Source: Chloroflexota bacterium
GTDB taxonomy: Bacteria; Chloroflexota; Anaerolineae; J102
Reading direction: 5' to 3'
Assembly (NCBI GenBank): GCA_013151415.1
Contig: JAADII010000188.1
Span: 1 to 32,667, forward strand
Length of the DNA stretch: 32,667 nucleotides
The translations under genes were made by a program, and so were the position numbers. The notes under the pieces are model-generated. The model did not search any database. It was given only the letters and a program-made list of their open reading frames with translations, and was not told where the DNA came from. This document shows positions 699 to 15,524 of the stretch, one piece after another (position 1 is the stretch's first letter; each line of letters starts with the position of its first letter).

Positions 699-2135
699 CT
701 AGTTTTGGCGTTTGTCGAGACGGTATGCAGTTTTTGCCAACTCATAGGCCGAGGCGCGAGCCATATCCATGGCGTCCTCTTCATCAATGACCCCGCGCAC
801 CACCAGCCCGGCTAACCAATTGCTTTCCACCCGGCGCCACACATCATGCCGAACCGGAATAGAAGGATAAGCCCTGGTGTCGTCGTTGAAGCCCACGGTG
901 TTGTATAACCCGGCCGTTTCATGAATCATTTCTCGATAACGGATCATGCCGTAGATGCTATCAAAGAACCACCAGGGCGGCCCCAAAAAGAGCGCAGGGT
1001 AATGACCGGCCAAAGGAGCCAACTCTCGCGAGTAGGCGCTTTCGTCGAGCGCAAAAAGGATGAGCCTGAGCCGGGTGTCGTTGCCATAGGCATTGAGCAG
1101 AGGGCGCAGATTGCGGGTGAATTCTGAACGCACCGGAATGTCCGCCCCTTTATCCGGCCCAAAACGTTCGTAGATGACGCGATTATGATTGCGCAATGAA
1201 CCCACATGGAATTGCATCACCAGTCCATCCTCGATGCTCATGCGGGCCATCTCCATGATCATATGGGCTGTGAAGCGTCGGGCGTCTTGCTCGTCGGCCT
1301 GGCCCGCCAATGCCTTTTGAAAGATGACCTCGGCCTCCATGCGCGAAAGACGCTCTGTGTAGGCGGTGAGGGCCGCATGATCGGTGGCTGTGGCGCCCAT
1401 TTGTTTGAAAAAAGCCCGACGTTGTTCTAAAGCCTGGATGTAACTCGCATAATTGTGGATGTTTACGCCGCTCACTTCCGCTAAACGCTCGATATGTTCT
1501 CTCCATCCTTCGGTGTCGATATTGACCACTGCATCGGGACGAAACGTGGGTCGGATATCGCCGCGCCAGTCCGATTCCTGAATTCGACGATGATGCTCCA
1601 ACGTATCGGTGGCCGCGTCGGTGGTGGTTAACACCTCGATGTTGAATCGCTCATATAGCGCTCGCGGCCGAAATTCAGGCGTGTTCAGTTTTGCCTGAAT
1701 TTGATCGTAGATATCCTGAGCGTTTTCGCTCGTTAATTTTTCCTCGATGCCAAATACTTCGCTGAACTCGGCCGCCAGCCAAATCCCTGTGGGCGTCCCC
1801 CGAAATAGATGGAAATGATCCGCGAAAATTTGCCAGATGCGGCGAGGGTTCTGTTCCACTGGCCCGCCATCGCGGCGCGGAACGCCCACACTCTCGAGAG
1901 GCACGCCCTGGGAGTAAAGCATGCGAAAGATGTAATGATCGGGAATGATGATCATTTCGGCGGGATTGCCGAAACTATAGTTGGGATCGGCGAACACGCG
2001 AGGGTCTACATGTCCATGCGGTGCGACAATGGGCAAGTCGGCAATGGACTGGTAGATCATCCGCGCGAGCCGACGTTGTGTCGGATCAGGATCGAAAAAA
2101 CGGTCAGGCGAGAGGTTCCAGGTGGGGAGAACCAT
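699..2135 (-). CDS. uxaC: Glucuronate isomerase
   Basis: UxaC interconverts D-glucuronate and D-fructuronate (and D-galacturonate and D-tagaturonate), the first cytoplasmic step of hexuronate catabolism. The 478-aa product has the usual family length. Its N-terminal HGHVDPR motif is the metal/substrate-binding signature of this amidohydrolase-superfamily enzyme, and the C-terminal part has the conserved GFNDDTRAYPSIPVRHDVWRR region and an ASAYELAKTAY helix. It starts at an ATG with only a weak GGGA-type ribosome site. It is the last gene of the minus-strand sugar operon, 128 bp after nagB, and no convincing promoter is visible in that gap, so co-transcription is likely. The next enzymes of the pathway (UxuB/UxaB, UxuA) are not in the window. 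The family assignment is secure. Confidence 0.95.
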   Translation of the reverse strand: MVLPTWNLSPDRFFDPDPTQRRLARMIYQSIADLPIVAPHGHVDPRVFADPNYSFGNPAEMIIIPDHYIFRMLYSQGVPLESVGVPRRDGGPVEQNPRRIWQIFADHFHLFRGTPTGIWLAAEFSEVFGIEEKLTSENAQDIYDQIQAKLNTPEFRPRALYERFNIEVLTTTDAATDTLEHHRRIQESDWRGDIRPTFRPDAVVNIDTEGWREHIERLAEVSGVNIHNYASYIQALEQRRAFFKQMGATATDHAALTAYTERLSRMEAEVIFQKALAGQADEQDARRFTAHMIMEMARMSIEDGLVMQFHVGSLRNHNRVIYERFGPDKGADIPVRSEFTRNLRPLLNAYGNDTRLRLILFALDESAYSRELAPLAGHYPALFLGPPWWFFDSIYGMIRYREMIHETAGLYNTVGFNDDTRAYPSIPVRHDVWRRVESNWLAGLVVRGVIDEEDAMDMARASAYELAKTAYRLDKRQN

Positions 2136-2263: not shown

Positions 2264-3064
2264 TCATCCAAGGTCGTTTTGTCGAAGAGCCGGCAGCGCC
2301 GCGGCCGCGGAGTCTGCATCGAGGAAGAGATGGGCGTGAGGCGTCTGACGAAGACTGGAGCCGGGGCAAGATTCGTGAATAGGCTCCAATAGGGCGCGAC
2401 GCACGGCTTCTGCTTTGCGCGTTTCGGGCACAATGCCCAGCACGCGTCGGGCCGCCAGCAATGCGGGAATCGTCAGGGTGACCGCGTGCGTGGGCACTTC
2501 GTCTAGGCGGCTGAAATGACCTTCGCCTACTTGTTGGCGGCGGGAAGCCTCGGCCAGACGCACCACTTTCACCCAAACCGGATCGTTGAATTCAGCAAAA
2601 GGGGGGTCGTTGAATGCAAGATGTCCATTTTCGCCATAGCCTAGCGCGCAAAGGTCGGCAGGATGCGCCCGAAGCAGGGCCGCGTAATCGGCGCAATCTT
2701 GCTCCAAACGCCCGGCGCGCGCTTGCACCGGATGGAATCGCCCTACATCGATGAAATCGAGGAAGTGACGATGCAGAAATGTCGGGAAGCTGGCGGGATG
2801 CCCTTCGGGTAGACCGACGTATTCATCCATGTGGAATACGGTCACTTTTGGCCAATCTACATCCATTTCGCGAAGGGCGTGCAAAAATGTGATTTGCGAA
2901 TTGCCGGTGGCGATGATCATATTGGCCCGGCCGCGAACTGCAATGGCCTTGTTTAAGATTGCCGCGGCCGTCACGGCCGCGGCCCGTCCCATGGCTTCAT
3001 TGCTGGGGTGGACATCGACGCGTAAAGCGTCGACCTGAGTTGAGAAAATGGGTTGGTTGGACAA
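2264..3064 (-). CDS. nagB: Glucosamine-6-phosphate deaminase (NagB/SugarP isomerase family)
   Basis: NagB converts glucosamine-6-phosphate to fructose-6-phosphate and ammonia, feeding amino sugars into glycolysis. Visible hallmarks are the phosphate-binding loop ATGNSQ (residues 52-57), the MDEY catalytic segment (about 79-82) and the GENGHLAFNDP motif (about 144-154) with the catalytic Glu/His pair. The C-terminus carries an ESCPGSSLRQTPHAHLFLD segment. The ATGNSQ loop resembles the broader glucosamine-6-P isomerase/6-phosphogluconolactonase group. The frame opens at a TTG at 3070, but the AAAGGAG ribosome site ends 1 nt before it. A second TTG at 3064 has 7-nt spacing and is preferred, giving 266 aa. 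It lies directly after the NagA-like gene, which supports the deaminase role. Confidence 0.88.
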   Translation of the reverse strand: MSNQPIFSTQVDALRVDVHPSNEAMGRAAAVTAAAILNKAIAVRGRANMIIATGNSQITFLHALREMDVDWPKVTVFHMDEYVGLPEGHPASFPTFLHRHFLDFIDVGRFHPVQARAGRLEQDCADYAALLRAHPADLCALGYGENGHLAFNDPPFAEFNDPVWVKVVRLAEASRRQQVGEGHFSRLDEVPTHAVTLTIPALLAARRVLGIVPETRKAEAVRRALLEPIHESCPGSSLRQTPHAHLFLDADSAAAALPALRQNDLG

Positions 3065-3152
3065 GAGCAAACTCCTTTCAAAGCGTCAAGAGTGGGTTCG
3101 GGGTTGAGGCGCTTTTTTCTCCATTCGCGTCTGGCGCTGAGGTGGACGTCGT

Positions 3153-4331
3153 TCAAAAAACCCAGCGTCCTCGAATTAGCGTGCGCCAAGGACTGAAATC
3201 CTCATCAAAGATGGCGATATCTGCATCTTTGCCTGCATCCAGGCTGCCTTTGCGATCGTCCACGCCAATGACTCGGGCGGGCGTGAGCGTGGCCATGCGC
3301 ACAGCTTCGGGCAGCGGAACGCCCACATGTTCGATGAGAATGGCCACCATGCGGTTGATCAGGGTTGTGCTGCCCGCAAATGAAGAGCGATCGAGCATCA
3401 TGCCCACCCCATCGCACACTTCATAGGTCATTTCGCCCATGCGGAAACGAGCGCCTTCGGGCAAGCCCGCGCCGCTGGTGGCGTCGGAGATGATGCACAG
3501 GCGATCGGGGCCAATGCATTTGTAGGCCAGCTTCATCAGGGTGGGTGGAAGATGCTTGTTATCGCAGATCATTTCCACGGTCAGGTTCTCGTTGGTCAGA
3601 GATGTCTCCAGCAGTCCGGGTTTGCGCCATGGGCCTTGGCGCACGGTGGTGGATTGTGCGCTCCAGATATGGATTATGTGTCGGAGGCCCGCTTCGATGA
3701 TGGGAAGGGTCTCCTCCTCTGTGGCGTTGCTATGGCCGGCTGCGGGGACCACCCCCAAGGCCGAAAGGCGGCGAGCCAGCTGAGCAGCTCCGGGCAATTC
3801 GGGCGCAAAGGTGAATATGCGGATGATGTCGGCGAAGGCCAGCAGGGGGTCGGGCGGAGTGTGGGCTGGGACAAGCAGGTTGGTTGGGTCCTGCGCGCCG
3901 GCCTGAGCCGGGCTGAAATAAGGCCCTTCGACATGTGCGCCCAGCACTTGTGCGCCGGGCCGCTCTTCGCTCATCCATCGCCGAATGAAGGCTAAGCTCG
4001 CGGTCAGGTCTGGCAGGGGCGCGGTGGCGGTGGTGGCCAATAGCGAAGTGATCCCGTTGCGGGCGTTCTCTATGGTGATGGCCGCGAATGCTTCGGTTGT
4101 TGGTTCGTTGAAGGTGTGACCTAGTGCGCCATGGATATGAATGTCGATAAGGCCAGGGGTGATGTAGCGGTTGCCGACATCAACGCGCTCGATTTCTGCG
4201 GGCAGTTCGGTTTCGGGTGAAATCGCGGTGATAAGAGGGCCATCAACGAGTAGCGCGTGGCCGGTAAGGACGCGATCGGGCAAGACGATGCGTCCGTGAG
4301 TAAGGGCGAAACAAGAGGAGGAAGACGGCAT
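3153..4331 (-). CDS. nagA: N-acetylglucosamine-6-phosphate deacetylase-like amidohydrolase
   Basis: The expected reaction is deacetylation of N-acetylglucosamine-6-phosphate, giving the substrate of the downstream NagB. The 392-aa product has the amidohydrolase plan: an N-terminal beta sandwich, DIHIH (63-67), HVEGP (133-137) with the metal-binding Glu, metal/substrate histidines at about 200 (GHSNAT) and 221, and the catalytic Asp in ISDATSGAG (about 283). The segment usually reading HLFNAM in NagA is HIWSAQ here, and the DGxH substrate loop reads DNKH. It is therefore a divergent family member whose N-acyl or sugar specificity could differ. A GGAG ribosome site sits 6 nt before the ATG. It follows the AGE-epimerase gene by 18 bp. 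Confidence 0.88.
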   Translation of the reverse strand: MPSSSSCFALTHGRIVLPDRVLTGHALLVDGPLITAISPETELPAEIERVDVGNRYITPGLIDIHIHGALGHTFNEPTTEAFAAITIENARNGITSLLATTATAPLPDLTASLAFIRRWMSEERPGAQVLGAHVEGPYFSPAQAGAQDPTNLLVPAHTPPDPLLAFADIIRIFTFAPELPGAAQLARRLSALGVVPAAGHSNATEEETLPIIEAGLRHIIHIWSAQSTTVRQGPWRKPGLLETSLTNENLTVEMICDNKHLPPTLMKLAYKCIGPDRLCIISDATSGAGLPEGARFRMGEMTYEVCDGVGMMLDRSSFAGSTTLINRMVAILIEHVGVPLPEAVRMATLTPARVIGVDDRKGSLDAGKDADIAIFDEDFSPWRTLIRGRWVF

Positions 4332-4349: not shown

Positions 4350-5534
4350 TCAGTCGTTGTTCGATAAAGATTGCAATGTATCAATGCACAGTATCAGCGC
4401 TCGAGGCAAATGGAATGGGTCTTTCACGGGCAAAGCCACAGTTTGATCGAATGGCCGGCCCTCGCGATCCAATTTTTGAGTCCATTCCCCATGTTTATGA
4501 ACCGGAAAGCGCATAAACGCATAATTATGCACTTTCTCATACCAATCCAGGGCCCAAGCTTCGCCCGAAAGTTGATAAGCCAGCAACAAGGCGTAGAGCG
4601 CTTCGGTGTGGGGCCACCACAGCTTGCTGTCTGCAAAGGGCCACCAGGGTTCGCCTCCGGCTGCATCGCGGGCCAAAACAATTCCCCCATAAACGTGATC
4701 CCACCCCAACTCAATATGCCAGCGGATGCTCTCGAGGGCTTGCCGTATACGGGTTTTATCACCCCAATGTTGATAGATGTGAATCATAAACCACATCGAT
4801 TCAATGGCGTGGCCGGGAACAATGGCTCGACCTTGGGGCGCGTCTATGAGCTGGTTGTCGAGGCCGACGTACTCGTAAAGCAGGCGTTGTTCGGGGCGAA
4901 GAAACGCGGTCATCACATCTTCGGCCAGTTCATGCGCCGACGAAAGGATGTGGGCGTCGTTCAATAGCAGACCCAATTCGTGAAAGGCCAGCGCGAAGAT
5001 CATGGCCACGGCATGAGCTTTGGCGCCGGGTGGAATGGCGTAGGGGGCCGTAGCATATGATCCGGGTCGAGCCAACCGCTCTCGCACATTTTTGTAGGTG
5101 GCCAAAGCCAGGTCCACCGCCTGTTGGTCGCCCGCGGCCCGGGCGAATTCGGTGAGACCGTAGATGGCGAACCCGTCAGAGTAAATGCTGATAGCTCCCT
5201 CTCGCACATTGCCTTGCCGGTCCACAGCAAAGACCCAACGCCCCAGCTCGTCTCTGCCATGCTTACATACAAAAGTTGTGATTTGCCTGGCCACATCGAG
5301 CCATTCTGGTCGGGCCTCGATACGGTTATACAGCGCCGAGAATGTCCAGATGGCCCGCAATTGCGACCACATGTATTTGTCGGTGCTGATCAATCGCCCG
5401 TCATCGCGAATGCAGGTGAGAATGCCGCCATATTCCCAATCGATGGTGCGCGGCATCCAGAAGGGAATGACGCGTTCGAGTAGCTCGGAGCGATGAATGG
5501 CCAATAGATCCACCATGCGCGCGTTAAGCTGCAT
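4350..5534 (-). CDS. AGE-family sugar 2-epimerase (N-acylglucosamine 2-epimerase fold)
   Basis: This family has an (alpha/alpha)6 barrel and epimerises at C2 of N-acylglucosamine/N-acylmannosamine, mannose/glucose or cellobiose. The 394-aa length is typical. Family marks visible are the aromatic-rich entrance (YMWSQLRAIWTFSALYN), SIYSDGFAIYGL, the catalytic-helix motif PGHAIES, WWPHTEALYALLLAY and the C-terminal FHLPRAL. The exact substrate cannot be read from sequence. Next to nagA and nagB, ManNAc/GlcNAc interconversion is a reasonable inference. An upstream in-frame ATG at 5546 lacks a ribosome site, whereas the ATG at 5534 has GGAG six bases upstream, so 5534 is chosen. It overlaps the end of the oxidoreductase gene by 11 nt, implying translational coupling. 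Confidence 0.85.
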   Translation of the reverse strand: MQLNARMVDLLAIHRSELLERVIPFWMPRTIDWEYGGILTCIRDDGRLISTDKYMWSQLRAIWTFSALYNRIEARPEWLDVARQITTFVCKHGRDELGRWVFAVDRQGNVREGAISIYSDGFAIYGLTEFARAAGDQQAVDLALATYKNVRERLARPGSYATAPYAIPPGAKAHAVAMIFALAFHELGLLLNDAHILSSAHELAEDVMTAFLRPEQRLLYEYVGLDNQLIDAPQGRAIVPGHAIESMWFMIHIYQHWGDKTRIRQALESIRWHIELGWDHVYGGIVLARDAAGGEPWWPFADSKLWWPHTEALYALLLAYQLSGEAWALDWYEKVHNYAFMRFPVHKHGEWTQKLDREGRPFDQTVALPVKDPFHLPRALILCIDTLQSLSNND

Positions 5535-6540
5535 GATTCGCTCCATAATAATCGCGTAGCATGTGGTCCATCACCCAGGTGGTGCGGGCGGCGCTCACCC
5601 CGGTGCTGATACACGTTCCCCGTCCCAACAGGGCGTCCACCACTTGCTGAATCAACGGCTGTTGAATGTGTCGCGGGTTGGCGATGGTCAGTTTGTTTAC
5701 GCCTTCAGGCGCGCTCACAATGATCGGCGATTCGCCAAAGGTTTCATACACAATGCGGCCCTTATCTCCAACGATTTCGGTGCGGTCCATGTCGTCATAA
5801 GCTGAAAAGCACCAAACGCCAGCGCCCTGCACGCCTGATTCGAAGCGAAAGGTCCCGGTGACAATGTCTTCCGCCGGATAACGTCCCGCTTGATTGGCCG
5901 CAAAACCGCACACCTCGGTGATGGGCCCAAAAAGGAAGTCGAGCAAATCCAACTGGTGTGAGGCCAGGTCGACAAATAAGCCGCCTCCGGCGATCTCGGG
6001 CAGCACGCGCCAGGGCGGCGTTTCATCTTCTGATACATGAGGCAAGATCGGTTGGTGCAAGGTGATGTTGACGAATCGCACCCGGCCAATGGCGCCATTT
6101 TCCACCAATGCTTTGATCTTTAGAAAACGAGGCAGCGCTCGACGATAGTAAGCGACAAAGAGCGGAACCCCCGCTTGCTCGCACGCCTCGATCATGTCCT
6201 GGCATTCCCGATGATTGAGCGCCATAGGTTTCTCGACATACGCGGGTTTGCCCGCGGCCGCGGCCATGAGCGCGTATTGTCGGTGGGACGAAGGCGGGGT
6301 GGCGATGTAGATTGCGTTTACATCGGGGTCATCGATGAGGGCCTGCGCGCTGTCATACCATTTGGCCACATTGTGTCGGCGGGCGTAATCTTGAGCCAAT
6401 GCGCCGTTGCGACGCATAACCGCCACCAAGCTTGAGCCTTGGGCTTTTTGCAACGCAGGCCCGCTTTTCACCTCCGTAACATCTCCACACCCGATGATTC
6501 CCCATCGAATAGGGGCCGAATCGGAAATTAGACCGCTCAT
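5524..6540 (-). CDS. Gfo/Idh/MocA-family NAD(P)-dependent oxidoreductase
   Basis: This is a cytoplasmic sugar or cyclitol dehydrogenase-type protein of 338 aa, normal for the family. The N-terminal Rossmann domain shows [12 protein letters not shown] (about 11-22) and the downstream strand [11 protein letters not shown]. The conserved EKPMALN motif follows, whose Lys is the usual catalytic/cofactor-contacting residue. The C-terminal alpha/beta domain includes [19 protein letters not shown], with the His of the catalytic helix. Its ATG overlaps the stop of the upstream ATPase gene (ATGA), and its end overlaps the epimerase gene, so it belongs to the operon. The substrate is unknown. It may oxidise or isomerise an imported sugar through a keto intermediate, which is inference only. 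Confidence 0.9.
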
Positions 6541-7595
6541 GAGGCTATGATCTCCTGAGGTTTGGCGACGCCTTGCAAAGTGAGTTCATGCGCATAATGA
6601 CACCGAACCAAATGATCGGGCGCTATCTCTTCGAGTTGGGGCGTTTCTTTTGCACATTTCTCCTCGGCATAGGGGCAACGAGGATGAAAATAGCAACCCG
6701 AAGGCGGATTGGCCGGGCTGGGAACATCGCCCTCTAGTGGAACGATTTTGGCGCGGATGCGCGGATTGGCGATGGGCGCCGCAGACATAAGGGCCGAGGT
6801 GTAGGGATGTCGGGGGTGAAAGAAGATCGCATCTGTAGGACCGCTTTCCACGATCTTTCCCACATACATGACGTTGATGCGGTCACAAAAGTGCTTGACC
6901 ACGCTAAGATCGTGAGCGACGAAAAGATAGGTGAGCCCCAGTTTTTCCTGAAGGTCTTTCATTAGATTCAGCACTTGGGCCTGCACAGAGACGTCCAAAG
7001 CCGATACGGGCTCGTCGGCCACGACCAGACGAGGGTTGAGGGCGAGCGCGCGTGCGATCACGATCCGTTGTCGTTGTCCACCGCTGAAGGCGTGAGGAAA
7101 TCGCTGCATATATTCCGGCCGCAATCCGACCAGCTCCAAAAGTTCGGCCACCCGCTCCATGCGTTGTTTGCGGTCCTTCATCTTTTCGATGACCAACAAG
7201 GGCTCGCCCACGATATCCAGGATGTTCATGCGTGGATTGAGCGAAGCGAAGGGGTCTTGAAAGATCATTTGCATGTCGCGGCGCAAGGGGCGAATTTCTT
7301 TCTCTGACAACGCGGCCAGATCAACCACTTCGTTCTGCGCTGTGCGAAAAAGGATCTGGCCTTCGGTGGGATCGATGGCGCGAAGGATGGTTCGCGCTGT
7401 GGTGGTCTTGCCGCAACCGCTCTCTCCCACCAGGCCAAGGGTTTCTCCCTCGCGTATCGCAAAACTGACGTCATCCACCGCACGCACTTGTCCGACGATT
7501 CGCCGGAAAAAACCCGCTCGAATTGGAAAATATTTTTTCAAATGTCTGACTTCAAGCAGATAAGGTTTGTTGGAGAACTTGTCTGACACGATCAC
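6537..7595 (-). CDS. Opp/Dpp-type ABC transporter ATP-binding protein (F subunit)
   Basis: This is the second nucleotide-binding subunit of a binding-protein-dependent importer. The 352-aa protein contains Walker [10 protein letters not shown], the ABC signature SGGQRQRI, Walker [13 protein letters not shown] and the switch His in VAHDLSVV. The C-terminal oligopeptide/dipeptide extension has a cysteine cluster ([14 protein letters not shown]) that in this family typically binds an iron-sulfur cluster. The gene opens with GTG overlapping the stop of the D-subunit gene (GTGA). A second GTG two codons downstream (7589) has better spacing from AAGGA and may be the real start. It ends in an ATGA overlap with the oxidoreductase gene. 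Opp-type systems carry peptides or oligosaccharides, and the operon context argues for sugars here. Confidence 0.93.
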
Positions 7596-8620
7596 GATCC
7601 TTCAACGATGGCGGGAGCATGGTCATAAAGAAAACAACTGACCGATTGCCGGTCGTTGATCGCTTTGAGCTTGGGAATAGCCGCGTTGCACACCCCGGGC
7701 ATGAAAGCCTTGCATCGGGGATGGAAAGGACACCCTGACGGTCGGCTAAAGGGATGCGGTATGGACCCTTCGATGGTGGGCAGCCGTTTTCCGGCCGGCG
7801 CGTAGATGGAGGGGATGGATTCTAGCAACGCTTTTGTATATGGGTGCTGTGGGTTGAAAAAGATGTCCTCCACCGGGCCAGACTCCATCACTCGGCCTAG
7901 ATACATCACCACCACGAAATCCGCGATCTGGGCGATGACGCCCAGATCGTGCGTGATAAAGATGATGGCCATGTTGTGCTGTTTTTGTAATGTGAGCAAT
8001 AAATTCAACACTTGCGCCTGAGTCGTCACATCGATGGCCGTGGTTGGTTCATCTGCAATGAGCAGGCGCGGGTTGCAAGCCAAAGACATGGCGATCATGG
8101 CGCGTTGTCGCAAGCCGCCGCTCAATTCCCATGAATATGCGTTCAATCGTTGTTCGGGGTTGGGCATGCCCACTTCGTGCAGCCGTTCAACAGCGATGCG
8201 ACGCGCTTCCTCTTCGTCCACATCCAGGTGCAGGAGAATGGCCTCCATGATCTGGTCGCCAATGGTATGAACGGGGCTGAAAGAGGCCATAGGTTCTTGG
8301 GGTATAAGTGCGATTTCTGCACCGCGAATGGAGCGAATCGTCTTTCCATGCGGGTCCAACTGGGCCAGGTCGATGATAGTCTCTCGTCCGGCTTCATCAT
8401 GGTGGCGAAACAGGATTTGGCCATCTATGATGCGACCTGGTTTTTGGATGAGTTGCATCACCGATTTGATGGTGACGCTTTTACCGCAACCGCTTTCGCC
8501 CACAATGCCAACGACTTGGCCGGGAAAGACGTCAAAGTCCACCCCATCCACGGCTTTGACAACGCCCTCATCCAGGAAAAAGTGGGTTTTCAGGTTCCTG
8601 ACAGATAATAACGGGGTCAT
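7592..8620 (-). CDS. Opp/Dpp-type ABC transporter ATP-binding protein (D subunit)
   Basis: This is the first nucleotide-binding subunit of the importer, 342 aa. Walker A is GESGCGKSV, the signature is [12 protein letters not shown] (the LSGGLRQR variant is usual for OppD), Walker B is [12 protein letters not shown], and the switch His is in [11 protein letters not shown]. The C-terminal oligopeptide-transporter tail contains [15 protein letters not shown], a cysteine cluster like that in the partner subunit. It starts 15 bp after the C permease, with a GAGGTGA ribosome site at slightly long spacing. It would pair with the F subunit as a heterodimer at the cytoplasmic face of the two permeases. 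Confidence 0.93.
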
Positions 8621-8635
8621 ATTGACGAAATCACC

Positions 8636-9841
8636 TCAGTGGCTATAAGGATCGGCGGCGTCACGCAGGCCATCGCCTAAGATGTTTAGCGCCAGCACGG
8701 TGATAATGACGGCCAGGCCCGGCAACAAGAGCCAGGGGGCTATGGCCACGGATTGCAGATTTTGCGCTTCTTGCAATAACACGCCCCAACTGATGGCGGG
8801 AGGGCGCAAACCCAGGCCCAAGAAGCTGAGAAAGGTTTCGCTGATGATCATGACTGGCACCGCAAGCGTGGCGGTGGCGATGATATGACTATAAAAGGTT
8901 GGAACCATATGTCGAAAGATGATGCGACTTTGGGTGGCGCCAGATAGCTTCGCCGCCATCACAAAATCTTCCTCTCGCAGCACCAAAAAGCGGCCGCGCA
9001 CCTCGCGGGCCAGCGTGGTCCAGCCAATGAGCGCCAGGATGAGCGTGATGGCGAAATATGTTTGCTCCACCGACCAATCCCGAGGCATGGCCGCGGTCAG
9101 CGCCATCCAAATGGGAATGGCGGGCAGAGACTGCAAGATTTCGATCATGCGTTGGATGATCAGATCGGGAACGCCGCCGTAATAACCCGAAACGCCCCCC
9201 AATAGCACGCCCAAAAACACGCTGACAAACACCGAGATCAGACCAATGGACACGGAGACTCGAGTGCCATACATGAGCCGCGACCATTGATCTCGGCCCA
9301 AGCGATCGGTTCCCAGCAGGTAGATGGGGTTTTCTTCGATATCGCCTTCTTTAACGCCGATAAAGTGAATATTGGTGGTGAATAATCCCAAAACCTCATA
9401 TTCGAAACCACGCGCGAAAAAGGTGATGGGAATCTTTTTCTCCTCGTCGATCTTCCATTCCATACGAAGGGTTTCAGGGTTGCGCCTGCCCACGATGCCG
9501 TAGACAAATGGTCTAAACGCGCCGTCATCGATGAAATGGATGCGCTGCACAGGCACAAAGGATTGTTGCGCCCGGCTTTTATGAGGATCCATGGTGCTGA
9601 AAAAGCCGGGAAAGAGCACGATCAACGCCAGCAAGATCACCACCAAGCCGCTGACAAGCGCAAGACGATGTTTTTTGAAGCGCCACCAGGTTAGCTTCCA
9701 GTTGGGAGCCACGTGGATGGCCGCGGCATCCTCTCGCTCATCCTCCAAACGCGCTTGATTCCATTCGGACAACGCGGTGAGATCGGCGTGACGCGCCTCT
9801 TGCGCCTCTTGGTTCGCTTCGGAGACTCGATCATCGCTCAT
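8636..9841 (-). CDS. Opp/Dpp-type ABC transporter permease (C subunit) with long periplasmic insertion
   Basis: This is one of the two membrane subunits. At 401 aa it is longer than the roughly 300 aa usual for OppC/DppC. The extra length is an acidic cytoplasmic N-terminus (about residues 1-45) and an insertion of around 100 residues between the first transmembrane helix (about 60-80) and the permease core, reading roughly from DPHKSRAQQ to the GTDRLGRDQWSR motif. The core is canonical, with TDxLGRD before TM2 and the EAA coupling loop around EEDFVMAAKLSGATQSRIIFRH. The ATG lies 2 bp after the B-permease stop, with GGAGG inside the end of that gene. The insertion could contact the binding protein or substrate at the outer face. 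Confidence 0.93.
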   Translation of the reverse strand: MSDDRVSEANQEAQEARHADLTALSEWNQARLEDEREDAAAIHVAPNWKLTWWRFKKHRLALVSGLVVILLALIVLFPGFFSTMDPHKSRAQQSFVPVQRIHFIDDGAFRPFVYGIVGRRNPETLRMEWKIDEEKKIPITFFARGFEYEVLGLFTTNIHFIGVKEGDIEENPIYLLGTDRLGRDQWSRLMYGTRVSVSIGLISVFVSVFLGVLLGGVSGYYGGVPDLIIQRMIEILQSLPAIPIWMALTAAMPRDWSVEQTYFAITLILALIGWTTLAREVRGRFLVLREEDFVMAAKLSGATQSRIIFRHMVPTFYSHIIATATLAVPVMIISETFLSFLGLGLRPPAISWGVLLQEAQNLQSVAIAPWLLLPGLAVIITVLALNILGDGLRDAADPYSH

Positions 9842-9843
9842 GC

Positions 9844-10830
9844 TCAGGCCTCCATCCGAATGCGGGGATCGAGCCAGGCCAATAACACATCGGATATCAA
9901 GGTTCCGATGATGGCCAGAAAACAGTAGATGAGTACGATCACGCCCGCCAAGAACATGTCCTGGTTGGTCAACGAGCGAAGCAGCAAAGGTCCGATGGTG
10001 GGTAGGTTTAGCACGGTCGCGACGATGACGCTGCCCGAGAAAAGCATGGGCAGATACCAGCCAATGGTGCTAACCAGGGGGTTGATGGCCAGATGCACCG
10101 GATATTTCAACACCAGTCGCCACTCCGACATGCCCTTAGCTCGCGCCATTTCCACATAAGGCTTGTTCAGTTCGTCCAACAGGTTTGCTCGCATGACTCG
10201 AGCCAGACGAGCTGTGCCATCCAATGCCAGGATCAGGGCCGGAAGCCAGAGATGCTTCAGCAAATCGATGACTCGGGCCAAGCTCCATGGCGCATCCACA
10301 TATTCGGGCGAAAACAATCCGGTGACGCTGATCCCAAAATAGGAGTAAGCCAACCACATCAACACCAGGGCGGTCATGAATGTGGGGGTGGCCACGCCCA
10401 AGTAGTTGAACACCGTGAAGAAATAATCAATGAACGAATATTGCTTGGTCGCCGAGATGATCCCAATAGGGATGGCCAGCGACCATGAAATGATGAATGT
10501 TGCAGCGCCCAATAGCACGGTGAGCAATAAGCGCTCTTTGATCAGCTCCATAATAGGGCGTTTCCAATCCAGAGAAACCCCAAAATCCCCGCGCAACATT
10601 CCGCCAACCCAGCGAAAATATTGAACAATCAAGGGTTGGTCCAGGCCATATTGTTCACGTAGCGCCTCGATCTGAGCCTGGTCCATCGAAGAGCCAGACG
10701 CGGCGAGCTCAGCGATATAGCTGGTGACAAAATCGCCCGGAGGCGCCTGGATGATAAAAAACGCAAAGACGGAAAAAATGAACAAGAGCAAGGGCAACAA
10801 CAAAAGCCGCTTGATGATATATTGCGTCAT
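9844..10830 (-). CDS. Opp/Dpp-type ABC transporter permease (B subunit)
   Basis: This 328-aa membrane protein has the standard DppB/OppB layout. It opens with the N-terminal MTQYIIKRLLLLPLLLFIFS helix and a periplasmic region containing ALREQYGLDQPLIVQY. Five further helices follow, with the EAA coupling loop (YVEMARAKGMSEWRLVLKYPVHLA) between them. The protein ends in the LAWLDPRIRM tail. The ATG is preceded by TGGAG at 7-nt spacing. It is separated from the binding-protein gene by 134 bp containing a strong hairpin, and is followed almost immediately by the C permease. It forms the heteromeric translocation pore with that subunit. Confidence 0.94.
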   Translation of the reverse strand: MTQYIIKRLLLLPLLLFIFSVFAFFIIQAPPGDFVTSYIAELAASGSSMDQAQIEALREQYGLDQPLIVQYFRWVGGMLRGDFGVSLDWKRPIMELIKERLLLTVLLGAATFIISWSLAIPIGIISATKQYSFIDYFFTVFNYLGVATPTFMTALVLMWLAYSYFGISVTGLFSPEYVDAPWSLARVIDLLKHLWLPALILALDGTARLARVMRANLLDELNKPYVEMARAKGMSEWRLVLKYPVHLAINPLVSTIGWYLPMLFSGSVIVATVLNLPTIGPLLLRSLTNQDMFLAGVIVLIYCFLAIIGTLISDVLLAWLDPRIRMEA

Positions 10831-10964: not shown

Positions 10965-13028
10965 TTATTGACTGAAGTAGAAGGTTTCGGGCCGCGTGTT
11001 GCCGGGCGTGCGCAACGGCCAGTCGTTGCCTGCGGTTTCGGGCACATTGCGCAGGTTGTTGTTTACAACCACCACGCCCTGAATCATGGGGGTCAGGCCC
11101 ACGGTGCCAATTTCCCAGATGTTGTCGGCCCAAACGCGGAAGAGCTCTTGGGCGATCTTGATTTGCTCTTCGCGTCCCGACACTTTGCCCTTGTCGATCA
11201 GCTCCACCAGTTTCTTGATCTCGGCTGGCGGCTCCATGCCCTCTTTGCCGTCGGTCTCATACCATTTGCGGAACAAAGGCCCAAACGTGAGCGCAGGATT
11301 GCTGCGCGGGTCCATCTTTGGTTGGCCGCTGAAGGGAAAACCGGTCGTGTCTTCGTTCCAGATTTCCACCATGAGGTCGTTGGTGTCGCGCATTTGGAAG
11401 GCGAGGGCGCGTTCTCTCACCTCGACATGGGCTTTCACGCCCACTTTGGCCCATTGTTCAACCGCCAGTTGTCCCACATCAGTCCAGTTGCCAAATGCGG
11501 GCACCACATTGATCTCGATATCGAGCGGTTTCCCGCTGGGCAGCAGGCGGAATCCATCGGCATCACGCTCGGTGAGGCCAATGCTGTCGAGCAATTCGTT
11601 GGCTTTGTCGGGATCATACTCGGTGTATTTGTAAGCCCATTCATCGCCAGGATAGTAAGGATGGTTGGGCGCGGGAACGCCTTGTCGGGGTTCGCCCAAC
11701 CCCAAGAACGCCAATTCTTTGATGGCCTCTCGGTCAAGCGCATGGGAGAGGGCGATGCGGAAGTCCTTATTTCGCAGCAGCTCGCCGATTTCAGGGTCGT
11801 TTTGATAAGTTTGATTGAACATGAACACCGCGTCTGAGCCGCCGAACGTAGGCCATGTGACGACGCGATACCCTCCTTTATCCTCATTTTCCTTGAGGAC
11901 CGGGTAATTGCTCATGTTGATATGACGGGCCTGAAAGTCGAGCTCGCCCGAAACCGCGGCCAAGTTCAACGCCTCTTTATCCGCGAAGAAGGTGAAGCGG
12001 ACTTCGTCGATGTATGGCAACTGATTGCCTTCTGGATCAACGCCGACGTAGTAGGGATTGCGTTTCAAAACAAACACCGGATCGGATACGGTGGAATTGT
12101 CGGGGACCCATGCCGCGGTGGTGGGACGGTCTGCATTGGTTTGAGGCAAAGCCTTCACCGTGAACAGCTCCACCCAGGTCTCAAAGCCGGCGTCCTTCAC
12201 CATCTTCTCCAATTCGGCGGCGTCAGCATAAGAGGCGTGGAATTGTTTGAGATAGTGAGCCGGCGCATAAGCGAGATTTGCAATGGAGAGGTCCGCGCCA
12301 TCTTTGTTGGCCAGATCCAGCAAGAAAGCCGTATTGGGTTGTTTAAAGGTCCACTTGACGGTGTAATCGTCGATTTTCTCGACGGTGGCCACCGAACCGT
12401 CGTTATTGACCATCCAATTCGCTGGATTAGGCATTAGGTCCGTGTTTAGCAGAATATCATTGTACCAGAAAAGAATATCATCCGCAGTCAAGGGTTCGCC
12501 ATCCGACCACTTGGCCCCAGGGCGCAAGTACACCGTCCATTCGGTGAAGTCTTCGTTGGATTCCCAACCCTTGGCGATGTGTGGAATCACTTCGCTGCCG
12601 TCGGGCGAGAAACGAACCAGGGCGTCATAGACGACGCGCACATAATTGTTGTGGTCAGAGGGCCCGAGAAAGGCTCGGCGCAATGTCCCCCCATACTGGC
12701 CAATGCCCTCAACCCCTTCTTCCACCAGGGGTTCTTCGGGCAATCGTTCATCTACGGGCGGTAGTTCGCCGGCTTTAACCCGCTCGGCGAGCATAGGCGC
12801 TTCGTTGTATTTGCTCTCTGGCGCGGGGGGTTCGGCCGCGGGAGCCTCGGTTGGGGTTGGAGGGGGGGCTTCGGTGGCTGCTGGCGCTTCGGCTGTGGGC
12901 GCTTCTGTTGCTGCGGGGGCCTGAGTGGGAGCGGGCGCTGATGCGCATGCAGCCAGCACCAAGATCAGGATCAGAGCGGCCACACTGATCAGCAGCAGGT
13001 TGCGTGGGTTCGATGAGTTGCGTTTCAT
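10965..13028 (-). CDS. Extracytoplasmic solute-binding lipoprotein, SBP family 5 (oligopeptide/oligosaccharide type)
   Basis: This is the substrate-capture component of the importer, a 687-aa lipoprotein. From the ATG at 13028 there is a basic N-terminus (MKRNSSNPR), a hydrophobic segment and a lipobox LAAC. A long Ala/Pro/Thr/Glu-rich tether follows (about residues 32-70), then the family-5 fold: YGGTLRRAF near the start, WTVYLRPGAKWSDGEPLTADDILF, and later ALSHALDREAIKELAF. The ATG has an AGGAGGG ribosome site 8 bases upstream. The same frame is open to a TTG at 13109, but that would place 27 residues before the signal peptide and is rejected. The protein is longer than typical peptide-binding DppA/OppA. 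Sugar rather than peptide specificity is inferred from the operon only. Confidence 0.93.
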   Translation of the reverse strand: MKRNSSNPRNLLLISVAALILILVLAACASAPAPTQAPAATEAPTAEAPAATEAPPPTPTEAPAAEPPAPESKYNEAPMLAERVKAGELPPVDERLPEEPLVEEGVEGIGQYGGTLRRAFLGPSDHNNYVRVVYDALVRFSPDGSEVIPHIAKGWESNEDFTEWTVYLRPGAKWSDGEPLTADDILFWYNDILLNTDLMPNPANWMVNNDGSVATVEKIDDYTVKWTFKQPNTAFLLDLANKDGADLSIANLAYAPAHYLKQFHASYADAAELEKMVKDAGFETWVELFTVKALPQTNADRPTTAAWVPDNSTVSDPVFVLKRNPYYVGVDPEGNQLPYIDEVRFTFFADKEALNLAAVSGELDFQARHINMSNYPVLKENEDKGGYRVVTWPTFGGSDAVFMFNQTYQNDPEIGELLRNKDFRIALSHALDREAIKELAFLGLGEPRQGVPAPNHPYYPGDEWAYKYTEYDPDKANELLDSIGLTERDADGFRLLPSGKPLDIEINVVPAFGNWTDVGQLAVEQWAKVGVKAHVEVRERALAFQMRDTNDLMVEIWNEDTTGFPFSGQPKMDPRSNPALTFGPLFRKWYETDGKEGMEPPAEIKKLVELIDKGKVSGREEQIKIAQELFRVWADNIWEIGTVGLTPMIQGVVVVNNNLRNVPETAGNDWPLRTPGNTRPETFYFSQ

Positions 13029-13108
13029 GTGGTTTTCCCTCCTAGGAAACAAGAAAGAGCGTTTTGGGGAGAACAACGGCGGCGTCTTTGATGGGGTTCG
13101 TCTGTGCA

Positions 13109-13119
13109 ATCACCTCCTT
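13109..13119 (-). promoter_or_regulatory. Orphan ribosome-binding-like sequence upstream of the binding-protein gene
   Basis: On the minus strand this reads AAGGAGGTGAT, an 11-base perfect complement of the 16S rRNA 3' end. No ATG follows at normal spacing. The nearest candidates (GTG inside it, ATT and TTG directly after it) are too close. A short frame from the GTG (13113) would encode 23 residues and stop with a TAG at 13042-13044, which overlaps the ribosome site of the real gene. Its role is unknown: leader peptide, ribosome standby site or chance. Confidence 0.35.
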
Positions 13120-13201
13120 ATGCATTGAGCGGCGTTGATGTTGGAAAGATAGATGAACGTGTTGAAAGCGAAAATATCTTTGCGGGCGCGAGAGGTCGCC
13201 A

Positions 13202-14212
13202 TCAGGTGACCTTGGGCGCGCTATTTCGGATGATCAATCGCGTCTTCACCGTGATGACGGGGGTCTCGATGCGCTGTCCTTTCATTTGTCGAAGCAAAAG
13301 ATTCATGGCCTGTCGCCCCATTTCCACCCGCGGAACGCGGCATGTGGTGAGGGCCGGCGTAACCAAGGCGGCGAGGTAAACATCATCGAAGCCGACGATC
13401 GCAATGTCGTTGGGGATGCGCCGGTTTAGCGCGCCGCATGCCTGAATGGCCCCCACTGCCACCAAATCATTGAAACAAAAGAGCGCGTCGAGTTGTGGGT
13501 GTCGCTTCAATAACAATTTAGTCGCCTCCTCACCCCCTTCCACCGTCGGCGTGCAATATTGAATCCAACCATCCTCGACCGAAATCCCCGCGCCTTCCAT
13601 GGCGTCCAGATAACCGCTCTTGCGTTGATTGGCGCTGTATGAAAAAGCGGGCCCCACCAAAATGCCAACGCGCTTCCGGCCCATGTTCAAAATGTGTCCG
13701 ACGGCCTTTTGGGCGCCTTTATGATTGTCCACCATCACGGTGGGATAAGATGCATCATCCATAAGCCGGTTCACAAGCACAATGGCCGGAAACCGTTTCA
13801 AGACATCCTGAAGAGCCGGCGTTTTTTGCCTTAGCCCACATAAAATCACCCCATCAACCTGCTTTTCCTCCAACGAAAACAGCACCTCTAGTTCGCGTTC
13901 TGGGTCTTCATTGCTGTTGCACAAGAAAACATTATAACCCTGATCATAGGCGGTGGCCTCGATGCCGCGGGCGATATCTGAGAAAAAGGGGTTGGAAATG
14001 TCGGGCACAACCATGCCGATGGTGGATGTGCGCGAAGTGGCCAGACCTCGGGCTACGGCGCTGGGCCTGTATCCTGTCTGTTCGATGACTTCCAGCACGC
14101 GTTGGCGGGTTTTTGGGCTCACCTCGGGCTTGTTGTTGATGACGCGCGACACGGTCTGGGAAGAGACTCCGGCCAGTTTCGCGACATCCGAGATTGTAAC
14201 GCGGCGGGTCAT
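13202..14212 (-). CDS. LacI/GalR-family transcriptional regulator
   Basis: This is a DNA-binding repressor of 336 aa, normal for the family. The N-terminal helix-turn-helix and hinge are clear (TISDVAKLAGVSSQTVSRVIN, starting near residue 6, with PEVSPKTRQRV after it). A periplasmic-binding-protein-like effector domain follows (VVPDISNPFFSDIARGIE, FNDLVAVGAIQA, IAIVGFDDVYLA). The recognition helix keeps the Gln and Arg that in E. coli LacI contact GTGAGC half-sites. The ATG has AGGA nine bases upstream. It is the first gene of the sugar operon, and lac-like operators overlap its own promoter region, so it probably represses itself and, by read-through, the downstream genes. The inducer is probably a sugar or sugar phosphate from the pathway. 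Confidence 0.94.
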   Translation of the reverse strand: MTRRVTISDVAKLAGVSSQTVSRVINNKPEVSPKTRQRVLEVIEQTGYRPSAVARGLATSRTSTIGMVVPDISNPFFSDIARGIEATAYDQGYNVFLCNSNEDPERELEVLFSLEEKQVDGVILCGLRQKTPALQDVLKRFPAIVLVNRLMDDASYPTVMVDNHKGAQKAVGHILNMGRKRVGILVGPAFSYSANQRKSGYLDAMEGAGISVEDGWIQYCTPTVEGGEEATKLLLKRHPQLDALFCFNDLVAVGAIQACGALNRRIPNDIAIVGFDDVYLAALVTPALTTCRVPRVEMGRQAMNLLLRQMKGQRIETPVITVKTRLIIRNSAPKVT

Positions 14213-14240
14213 ATGAGGCGTTCCTGAGCATGCGATCGCG

Positions 14241-14280
14241 TGTGAGCGCTGCCGTGAGCGCTCACATATTCAGTGTGAGT
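14241..14280. promoter_or_regulatory. Lac-like operator sites for the LacI-family regulator
   Basis: GTGAGCGCTCAC (14254-14265) is a perfect 12-bp palindrome matching the core of the ideal symmetric lac operator. A second copy of the half-site, TGTGAGCGCT (14241-14250), makes a 10-bp inverted repeat with AGCGCTCACA (14257-14266). A further TGTGAGT half-site is at 14274-14280. The sites cover the predicted transcription start and early leader of the regulator gene. Confidence 0.75.
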
Positions 14281-14309
14281 AATATACAGTACTTTTTCCC
14301 TCCTGTCAA
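14281..14309 (-). promoter_or_regulatory. Promoter of the regulator gene and sugar operon
   Basis: On the minus strand, a consensus TTGACA (14309-14304), a 17-bp spacer and TATATT (14286-14281) form an almost ideal sigma70-type promoter. The lac-like operators lie immediately downstream, a classic repression geometry. No comparable promoter is visible directly upstream of the binding-protein gene, so this may drive the whole operon. Confidence 0.75.
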
Positions 14310-14372
14310 TAGGTTTTTATCCCCAACAAAGATTTTTTCACACCCGGGAATAGCCCGCGAAAGACGCCGTCG

Positions 14373-14438
14373 AAACAAAGGGGCGCCCTCGTTGAAGATG
14401 GGCCTGACAAACCATCTCTCCAAAAACGAGAGCGCCCC
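14373..14438 (-). terminator. Intrinsic terminator of the SPFH gene
   Basis: Outer arms 14425-14438 and 14380-14393 pair over 14 positions with one mismatch. An inner AGATGG/CCATCT stem (14396-14401 with 14412-14417) stacks within the loop. On the minus strand the stem is followed by TTTGTTT (14379-14373). It lies 24 bp after the SPFH stop codon and insulates the sugar operon promoter. Confidence 0.75.
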
Positions 14439-14462
14439 CTTTTCAATATCATCGCCGGTTGG

Positions 14463-15524
14463 CTAGGGCGCGCTGGGCGCGCTGAAGAGATCGCCGGGGA
14501 GAATGAGTTGTTCACCGCCTCCTGTGCTGACCACCGTTGGATAACGGCCATTCCATTGGTTTACGGCTTGCCAACGGATGACTTCGGGCGTCAGGCTTTG
14601 GGCGATGAGCCGGTTCGCCTCGGCCTGAGCTTTGGCCTTTAGCAGGGTGGCTTCAGCTTCGGCTTGTGCTCGCAGCTTGGTGGCCTCGGCTTCGCCCTGA
14701 GCCACACCAATGCGTTCCAGGCGTTGGCGTTCGGCCTCGGCTTCGGCCTGGGTGATGGTGCGTTGTTTTTCGAACTCGGCCTGTTTGGCCAGGTTTTGCT
14801 TGGTGATGATGTTTTCGGCCTCGATTTGCTTCGTCTCCACCGCCTGCTTATAAGCTTCGGTGAACCCGATCTGCCGCAAGCCAAAGAACACCAATTCCAG
14901 GCCTTCGGCCTCGAAGTCCTTTCGCAGTTGCTCGGAAATGGTTTCTTGCGCCTCGCGAATATCGCCCGAGTAGAGCTGGCTCGCCTCGTAATTGCGCAGC
15001 AATGTGCGCACCCAAACGCGGCTATTTTGCTTGACCAATTTTTCCACCACTTCTTCTTCGGTTCCCAGATTGTTGACGATATTGGCGGCTTCTTGCGGTT
15101 TTATGCGAAAACGCACCGTATAACGAGCCGTAATTTGCTGGCCATCGCTGGTGGCCGTGTCCACCGAAATGTCGGTGTAGTCCGCTTTGGAAAGCTCCGG
15201 CGCGTCGCTGGTCTCGTAGACAATTTCCTGAGTGCGGTACACCACGGTTTCATCGATGAATGGAATTTTCCAGTTTAGCCCAGGCTCGAAGACCGCGACC
15301 ACGCGACCCAAGCGTTTGACCACAGCCACCGACCCGGCTTGCACCACGGTGTAGCTATTCATCAAGGCCAATATGGCAAAAACCAGGATGAACACCACGA
15401 CGCCCACCGTGAGACCGGAGCTTGGCTTGGGCTTTCCGCTGCGGGCGCTGGCTCCAACAACCAGCGCGGCCGCGCCGAAACCAATGATGAGCGAGAGTAG
15501 CACCGCGAAAATAAGTTGACCCAT
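14463..15524 (-). CDS. SPFH/Band 7 (prohibitin/stomatin-like) membrane protein
   Basis: SPFH proteins form large membrane-associated oligomers that organise membrane microdomains or regulate membrane proteases. This 353-aa protein has two N-terminal hydrophobic segments (about 2-25 and 37-58) and then the SPFH domain from about 62 (VQAGSVAVVKRLGRVVAVFEPG). A long Ala/Glu/Gln-rich coiled coil follows (about 225-310, repeated AEAEA patterns), with a short C-terminal tail. Start choice is clear: ATG with AAGGAGG six bases upstream. It has its own likely promoter (15622-15650) and a terminator, so it is probably monocistronic. It is prohibitin-like rather than a clear HflC/HflK, and no partner gene (NfeD or second SPFH) is adjacent. 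Confidence 0.9.
   Translation of the reverse strand: MGQLIFAVLLSLIIGFGAAALVVGASARSGKPKPSSGLTVGVVVFILVFAILALMNSYTVVQAGSVAVVKRLGRVVAVFEPGLNWKIPFIDETVVYRTQEIVYETSDAPELSKADYTDISVDTATSDGQQITARYTVRFRIKPQEAANIVNNLGTEEEVVEKLVKQNSRVWVRTLLRNYEASQLYSGDIREAQETISEQLRKDFEAEGLELVFFGLRQIGFTEAYKQAVETKQIEAENIITKQNLAKQAEFEKQRTITQAEAEAERQRLERIGVAQGEAEATKLRAQAEAEATLLKAKAQAEANRLIAQSLTPEVIRWQAVNQWNGRYPTVVSTGGGEQLILPGDLFSAPSAP

Follow-up and report, generated by a model that had tools for sequence, protein, structure and literature searches.

Gene content and regulator of the locus

The window, by which we mean the whole 32,667-nucleotide stretch of DNA analysed, carries on its minus strand a gene for a LacI-family repressor of 336 aa (13202–14212) followed by a long run of transport and catabolic genes. 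The first gene past the regulator, which adjoins it in relatives too, encodes a family 5 solute-binding lipoprotein (SBP; 10965–13028), and is followed on the same strand by an Opp-type ABC transporter with two permeases and two ATPases (6537–10830), a Gfo/Idh/MocA oxidoreductase (5524–6540), a protein of the N-acylglucosamine 2-epimerase (GlcNAc 2-epimerase) family (4350–5546), an N-acetylglucosamine-6-phosphate deacetylase scoring above the curated cut-off (NagA; 3153–4331) and a glucosamine-6-phosphate isomerase/deaminase-like protein (NagB-like; 2264–3070). On account of this gene content, the operon looks like a system for amino-sugar uptake and breakdown. Relatives keep the order regulator–SBP–permeases–ATPases–Gfo/Idh–epimerase–NagA–NagB, wholly or in part. 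In the window, a glucuronate isomerase (UxaC) gene (699–2135, minus strand) lies after the nagB-like gene; among the relatives examined, no UxaC gene was found beside the operon. The operon of genome G006 (L146) holds two inserted genes (5270–6688 and 8955–10058), encoding a sulfatase-like protein and a 367-aa protein, possibly a sign that the substrate is a sulfated amino sugar. The initial annotation considered the sequence Chloroflexota-like, which fits by inference: among seven named genomes, an Anaerolineales MAG has the closest counterpart of the window's dnaE (52%).

The regulator scores above cut-off for PF00356, PF00532 and PF13377, indicating that both the LacI helix-turn-helix and the periplasmic-binding-protein (sugar-binding) core are present. 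It has no C-terminal extension past this core, and its length gives no sign of a tetramerisation segment. Its recognition helix reads GVSSQTVSRV, so that Gln18 and Arg22 are kept as in LacI, in agreement with the initial annotation, and Tyr17 of LacI is replaced by Ser. Among proteins of solved structure, it is closest to CcpA, RbsR and PurR and considerably further from LacI; as the operon is also amino-sugar-like, the regulator was rejected as an orthologue of the lactose repressor. A search of the named GTDB collection returned no close orthologues, the best match having 37% identity.

Promoter and tandem operator

A sigma-70-type promoter precedes the regulator on the minus strand (14309–14281), with a −35 hexamer TTGACA (14304–14309) and a −10 hexamer TATATT (14281–14286) separated by a 17-nt spacer and matching 11 of the 12 consensus bases. 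This was the only promoter-like site in the scanned region 13050–14600. Directly downstream, 15 nt past the −10 hexamer, lies operator unit 1, GTGAGCGCTCAC (14254–14265, minus strand), a perfect palindrome with a central CpG that matches the palindromic core of the ideal symmetric lac operator without mismatch; on both the promoter and this core the initial annotation was right. Operator unit 2, GGCAGCGCTCAC (14242–14253, minus strand), is a two-mismatch copy of GTGAGCGCTCAC with a degenerate inner half-site (GGCA); it abuts unit 1 at a centre-to-centre distance of exactly 12 bp and ends 29 nt before the regulator ATG (14212). The window thus shows the LacI-family trait of an even palindrome with central CG near a regulated promoter. 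Within the window itself, two matches to the palindrome with up to two mismatches were found against 1.66 expected, which is chance level, so the weight of evidence rests on conservation. The perfect 12-mer and the 25-bp double site each occur once in the 4.52-Mb genome, in which 13 single-mismatch sites, mostly within reading frames, were also found, and no convincing further target of the regulator was detected there.

Conservation in orthologues and sites in trans

Two same-family orthologues, L027 (72% identity) and L028 (64%), have both promoter hexamers with the 17-nt spacer and the double site nearly letter for letter, the latter reading TGTGAGCGCT(C/A)ACGGCA(G/A)CGCTCACA. A third (L029, 55% identity) carries GTTACCGCTCAC twice in tandem, that is, with changed half-sites. 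The initial annotation had described a second full and a third partial half-site around the palindrome. The second copy stands and is kept in the orthologues, but the third (ACTCACAC, just past the −10 hexamer) is missing from L027 and L028 and is therefore probably a chance match. Similarly, the proposed overlap of half-sites is real and conserved, but two abutting 12-bp CpG-centred units describe it better than a palindrome plus a 6-bp-spaced inverted repeat. Further relatives were collected by a class-wide search and their upstream regions read. A perfect 24-bp array, GTTAGCGCTAAC twice, is present in L118, together with a regulator bearing Met at position 18 (M18).

The palindrome is thus kept upstream of orthologous regulators, as the initial annotation proposed to check, and arrays stand before transporter genes as well. 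In four genomes (G714, G570, G596 and G686), the double site is also found upstream of genes for this type of transporter (SBP, permeases and ATPases), on a different contig from the regulator (the G596 contig ends inside the SBP gene). Because the sequences match, these trans sites can be assigned, with due reserve, to the particular regulators of those genomes, and the trans arrays appear to tie the site to the function of the operon and not to the regulator's own gene alone. With promoter and operator conserved in orthologues, the initial proposal of an autoregulatory LacI-family operator in front of a sugar operon is borne out at the sequence level, and the stretch is probably where an amino-sugar operon is autoregulated, through a tandem operator bound by the encoded repressor. 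The LacI-family dimer (13202–14212) would bind through its recognition helix (Q18, R22), with the hinge helix at the CpG, to the two abutting 12-bp units, at roughly +10 to +33 relative to the probable transcription start. Bound repressor would block RNA polymerase at the single promoter serving the regulator and the downstream genes, and an amino-sugar metabolite would act as the inducer that releases it.

Spacing of the operator units

Among 50 related genes having a site, which share ancestry and hence are not independent, 30 have a second CpG-centred unit (score of at least 8/10) exactly 12 bp away; 2000 rounds with shuffled flanks gave 0.12 such genes on average and never more than three. 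None of the other non-harmonic spacings recurs in this set. The remaining 20 genes carry a single unit only, so the family does not depend on the second. The tree shows 13 changes between the double and the single state, with the spacing always 12 bp, and three loci (L109, L110 and L112) have three-unit arrays. It is improbable that the window has one ordinary operator, with unit 2 arising by chance or persisting as a neutral relic: the single-unit relatives and the degenerate inner half-site of unit 2 would suit such a reading, but it conflicts with the excess of double sites over the shuffled expectation, with gains and losses that repeatedly arrive at the same spacing, and with the retention of unit 2 in L027 and L028. 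Both units therefore appear, from comparison of the sequences, to be under selection.

When 392 genomes of the class were searched blind for two consecutive copies of GTKANCGNTMAC, 47 sites turned up in 43 of them, and the reversed control pattern gave no match in the same genomes. A LacI-family gene starts 28–120 bp downstream of the array in 27 of 30 loci inspected, and many of these genes belong to subfamilies only about 30–36% identical to the regulator of the window. When units starting with GTGA were counted in the class genomes, 31 sites were directly abutting versus nine for all gaps of 1–24 bp together. In 191 genomes sampled across the phylum, the sole match came from the same family as the window, and the 168 genomes from other classes contained no exact double units. 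Similarly, 12-bp spacing was absent from 180 genomes of the family of an Arthrobacter MAG, in which units are spaced 16 and 24 bp apart. Within the samples searched, the strict 12-bp arrangement seems restricted to one class.

Residue 18 and the half-site base

The base of the best unit follows residue 18 of the regulator, with 40 G and 12 T for Q18 regulators and 2 G and 46 T for M18 regulators; GTGA half-sites accompany Q18 and GTTA half-sites accompany M18. The tree contains three Q/M switches, at least two of them required by well-supported branches, and co-change of residue and base paired on the tree was not significant, three switches being too few events. A recognition code for the LacI family has already been published (PMC2978694).

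Occupancy of the tandem operator

The remark in the initial annotation that the half-sites suggest alternative binding registers or two dimers is its strongest part. The most likely reason for selection on both units is that two dimers can bind next to each other on roughly one face of the DNA, 12 bp (about 40 angstrom, 51 degrees) apart, which would give tighter or steeper repression. Co-binding with fixed geometry is favoured because the 12-bp spacing is strict and three-unit arrays exist. Given that both units matter, we put co-occupancy by two dimers at about an even chance, and regard co-binding as no more than plausible. LacI-type base contacts are reported to overlap at about 13 bp, and dimers so placed are held to be unable to interact (PMC4052901). 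A coarse geometric sphere model placed the non-clash limit mostly at 11–13 bp, with parameter-dependent values from 8 to 14; the closest-packing argument was dropped as proof since this threshold shifts with the parameters.

The half-sites of the arrays differ in conservation. The outer ones are conserved best and the inner ones are weaker, T at the NT-5 position being found in 59 of 62 outer and 41 of 62 inner half-sites (Fisher p = 6e-5, for related sequences that are not independent). Such weakening is compatible with crowding of neighbouring DNA-binding domains or with alternative registers. In the latter case, the operator would accommodate only one dimer at any moment, with unit 2 serving as a neighbouring overlapping position that raises local occupancy and rebinding. 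This is a genuine possibility, if short of probable: besides the weak inner half-sites, the contacts in published structures span the seven bp nearest the site centre and would overlap at 12-bp spacing (PMC4052901). However, rebinding or register exchange alone needs no exact spacing, yet 12 bp is found in every tandem relative, and the three-unit arrays also speak against it. The strong outer half-sites could instead be spanned by one dimer (TGTGAGCG-N10-CGCTCACA) in the manner of CytR, which binds inverted octamers with spacers of 10–13 bp (PMC3454398). We consider such bridging unlikely, as the inner half-sites, like both CpG centres, persist in nearly all arrays, one compact unit suffices in 20 of the 50 relatives, and three-unit arrays are incompatible with it.

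For side-by-side docking, a wider generalisation can be offered tentatively, although we rate it as rather doubtful: many LacI-family repressors of the class may bind as lateral arrays of two or three dimers at the closest possible spacing of 12 bp, the DNA-binding domains of adjacent dimers touching each other, a form of cooperativity that would not have been described before in the LacI family. Natural double and triple arrays of strict spacing occur in the class alongside single-unit relatives that can serve as controls, as do Q18/M18 pairs whose half-sites match. As an observation on the inner half-sites themselves, the second base is G in place of T (GGCA, GGTA or GGGA) in L125, L126, L129, L132, L133 and the window. 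The recurrence of this T-to-G change in separate clades suggests that it is selected.

Comparison with known operators

The lac-like sequence itself is ordinary. The initial annotation regarded its closeness to the enterobacterial operator as remarkable, a view that does not hold up: a central CG occurs in 1173 of 1303 published LacI-family motifs, autoregulation applies to 72% of the regulators (PMC4052901), and natural counterparts of the symmetric lac operator were already reported in 2010 (PMC2978694). The window and E. coli LacI with its symmetric (ideal) operator have the core GTGAGCGCTCAC, Q18 and R22 in common; they differ in that the window has Ser for Tyr17, a protein nearer to CcpA, RbsR and PurR, and a doubled operator.

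Conserved in orthologues and centred roughly a helical turn from each other, the units belong among the overlapping LacI-family operators. Such sites, about 13 bp apart, have been described at 110 operons including E. coli gntKU, their occupancy being unexplained (PMC4052901), and we found no structural explanation of them in the literature. At gntKU, E. coli GntR likewise has two overlapping palindromic sites conserved in orthologues (PMC4052901, citing Tsunedomi 2003), and its Met18 and GTTA half-sites resemble those of the M18 relatives of the window's regulator. However, we measured 13 bp in the gntK site (GTTACCGATAAC-A-GTTACCCGTAAC), whereas the units in the window's class are strictly 12 bp apart and abut with no base between; the operator was therefore not assigned to the GntR type. 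In addition, unlike gntKU, the arrays of the window's type are autoregulatory, occur in many subfamilies of one class and comprise up to three units. The strict 12-bp double operator is thus a new form of a known, unexplained overlapping LacI-family arrangement.

Two further systems offer partial parallels. CodY binds overlapping 15-nt boxes as two or three dimers with strict spacing (PMC10415144), resembling the arrays here, and its cooperativity is abolished by one or two extra base pairs (PMC10415144); it is an unrelated winged-helix protein with a 9-bp shift, and is an analogy for the mechanism only. CytR, itself of the LacI family, has inverted half-sites about one helical turn apart as in the window (PMC3454398), but its sites are CRP-dependent and of variable spacing, whereas here the spacing is fixed at 12 bp and both CpG centres are kept, so a CytR-like, variably spaced operator was rejected.

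Some other arrangements were encountered in the searches. Units in L194–L201, from the family of the Arthrobacter MAG, are paired 16 or 24 bp apart, a spacing rule unlike that of the class. Paired GTGAACGTTCAC units 15 bp apart occur at G663:C3:1673608-1673634, and likewise in G642 and G532, and a 42-bp quasi-palindrome made of GTGAACGCTCAC-like half-sites lies at G577:C4:79759-79800. Finally, a perfect 24-bp palindrome, GTTACCGGTCACGTGACCGGTAAC, also with 12-bp unit spacing, precedes the genes L167, L170, L186 and L188, which form a different LacI-family subgroup (roughly 30–44% identical) with the helix GVSHQTVSRV.
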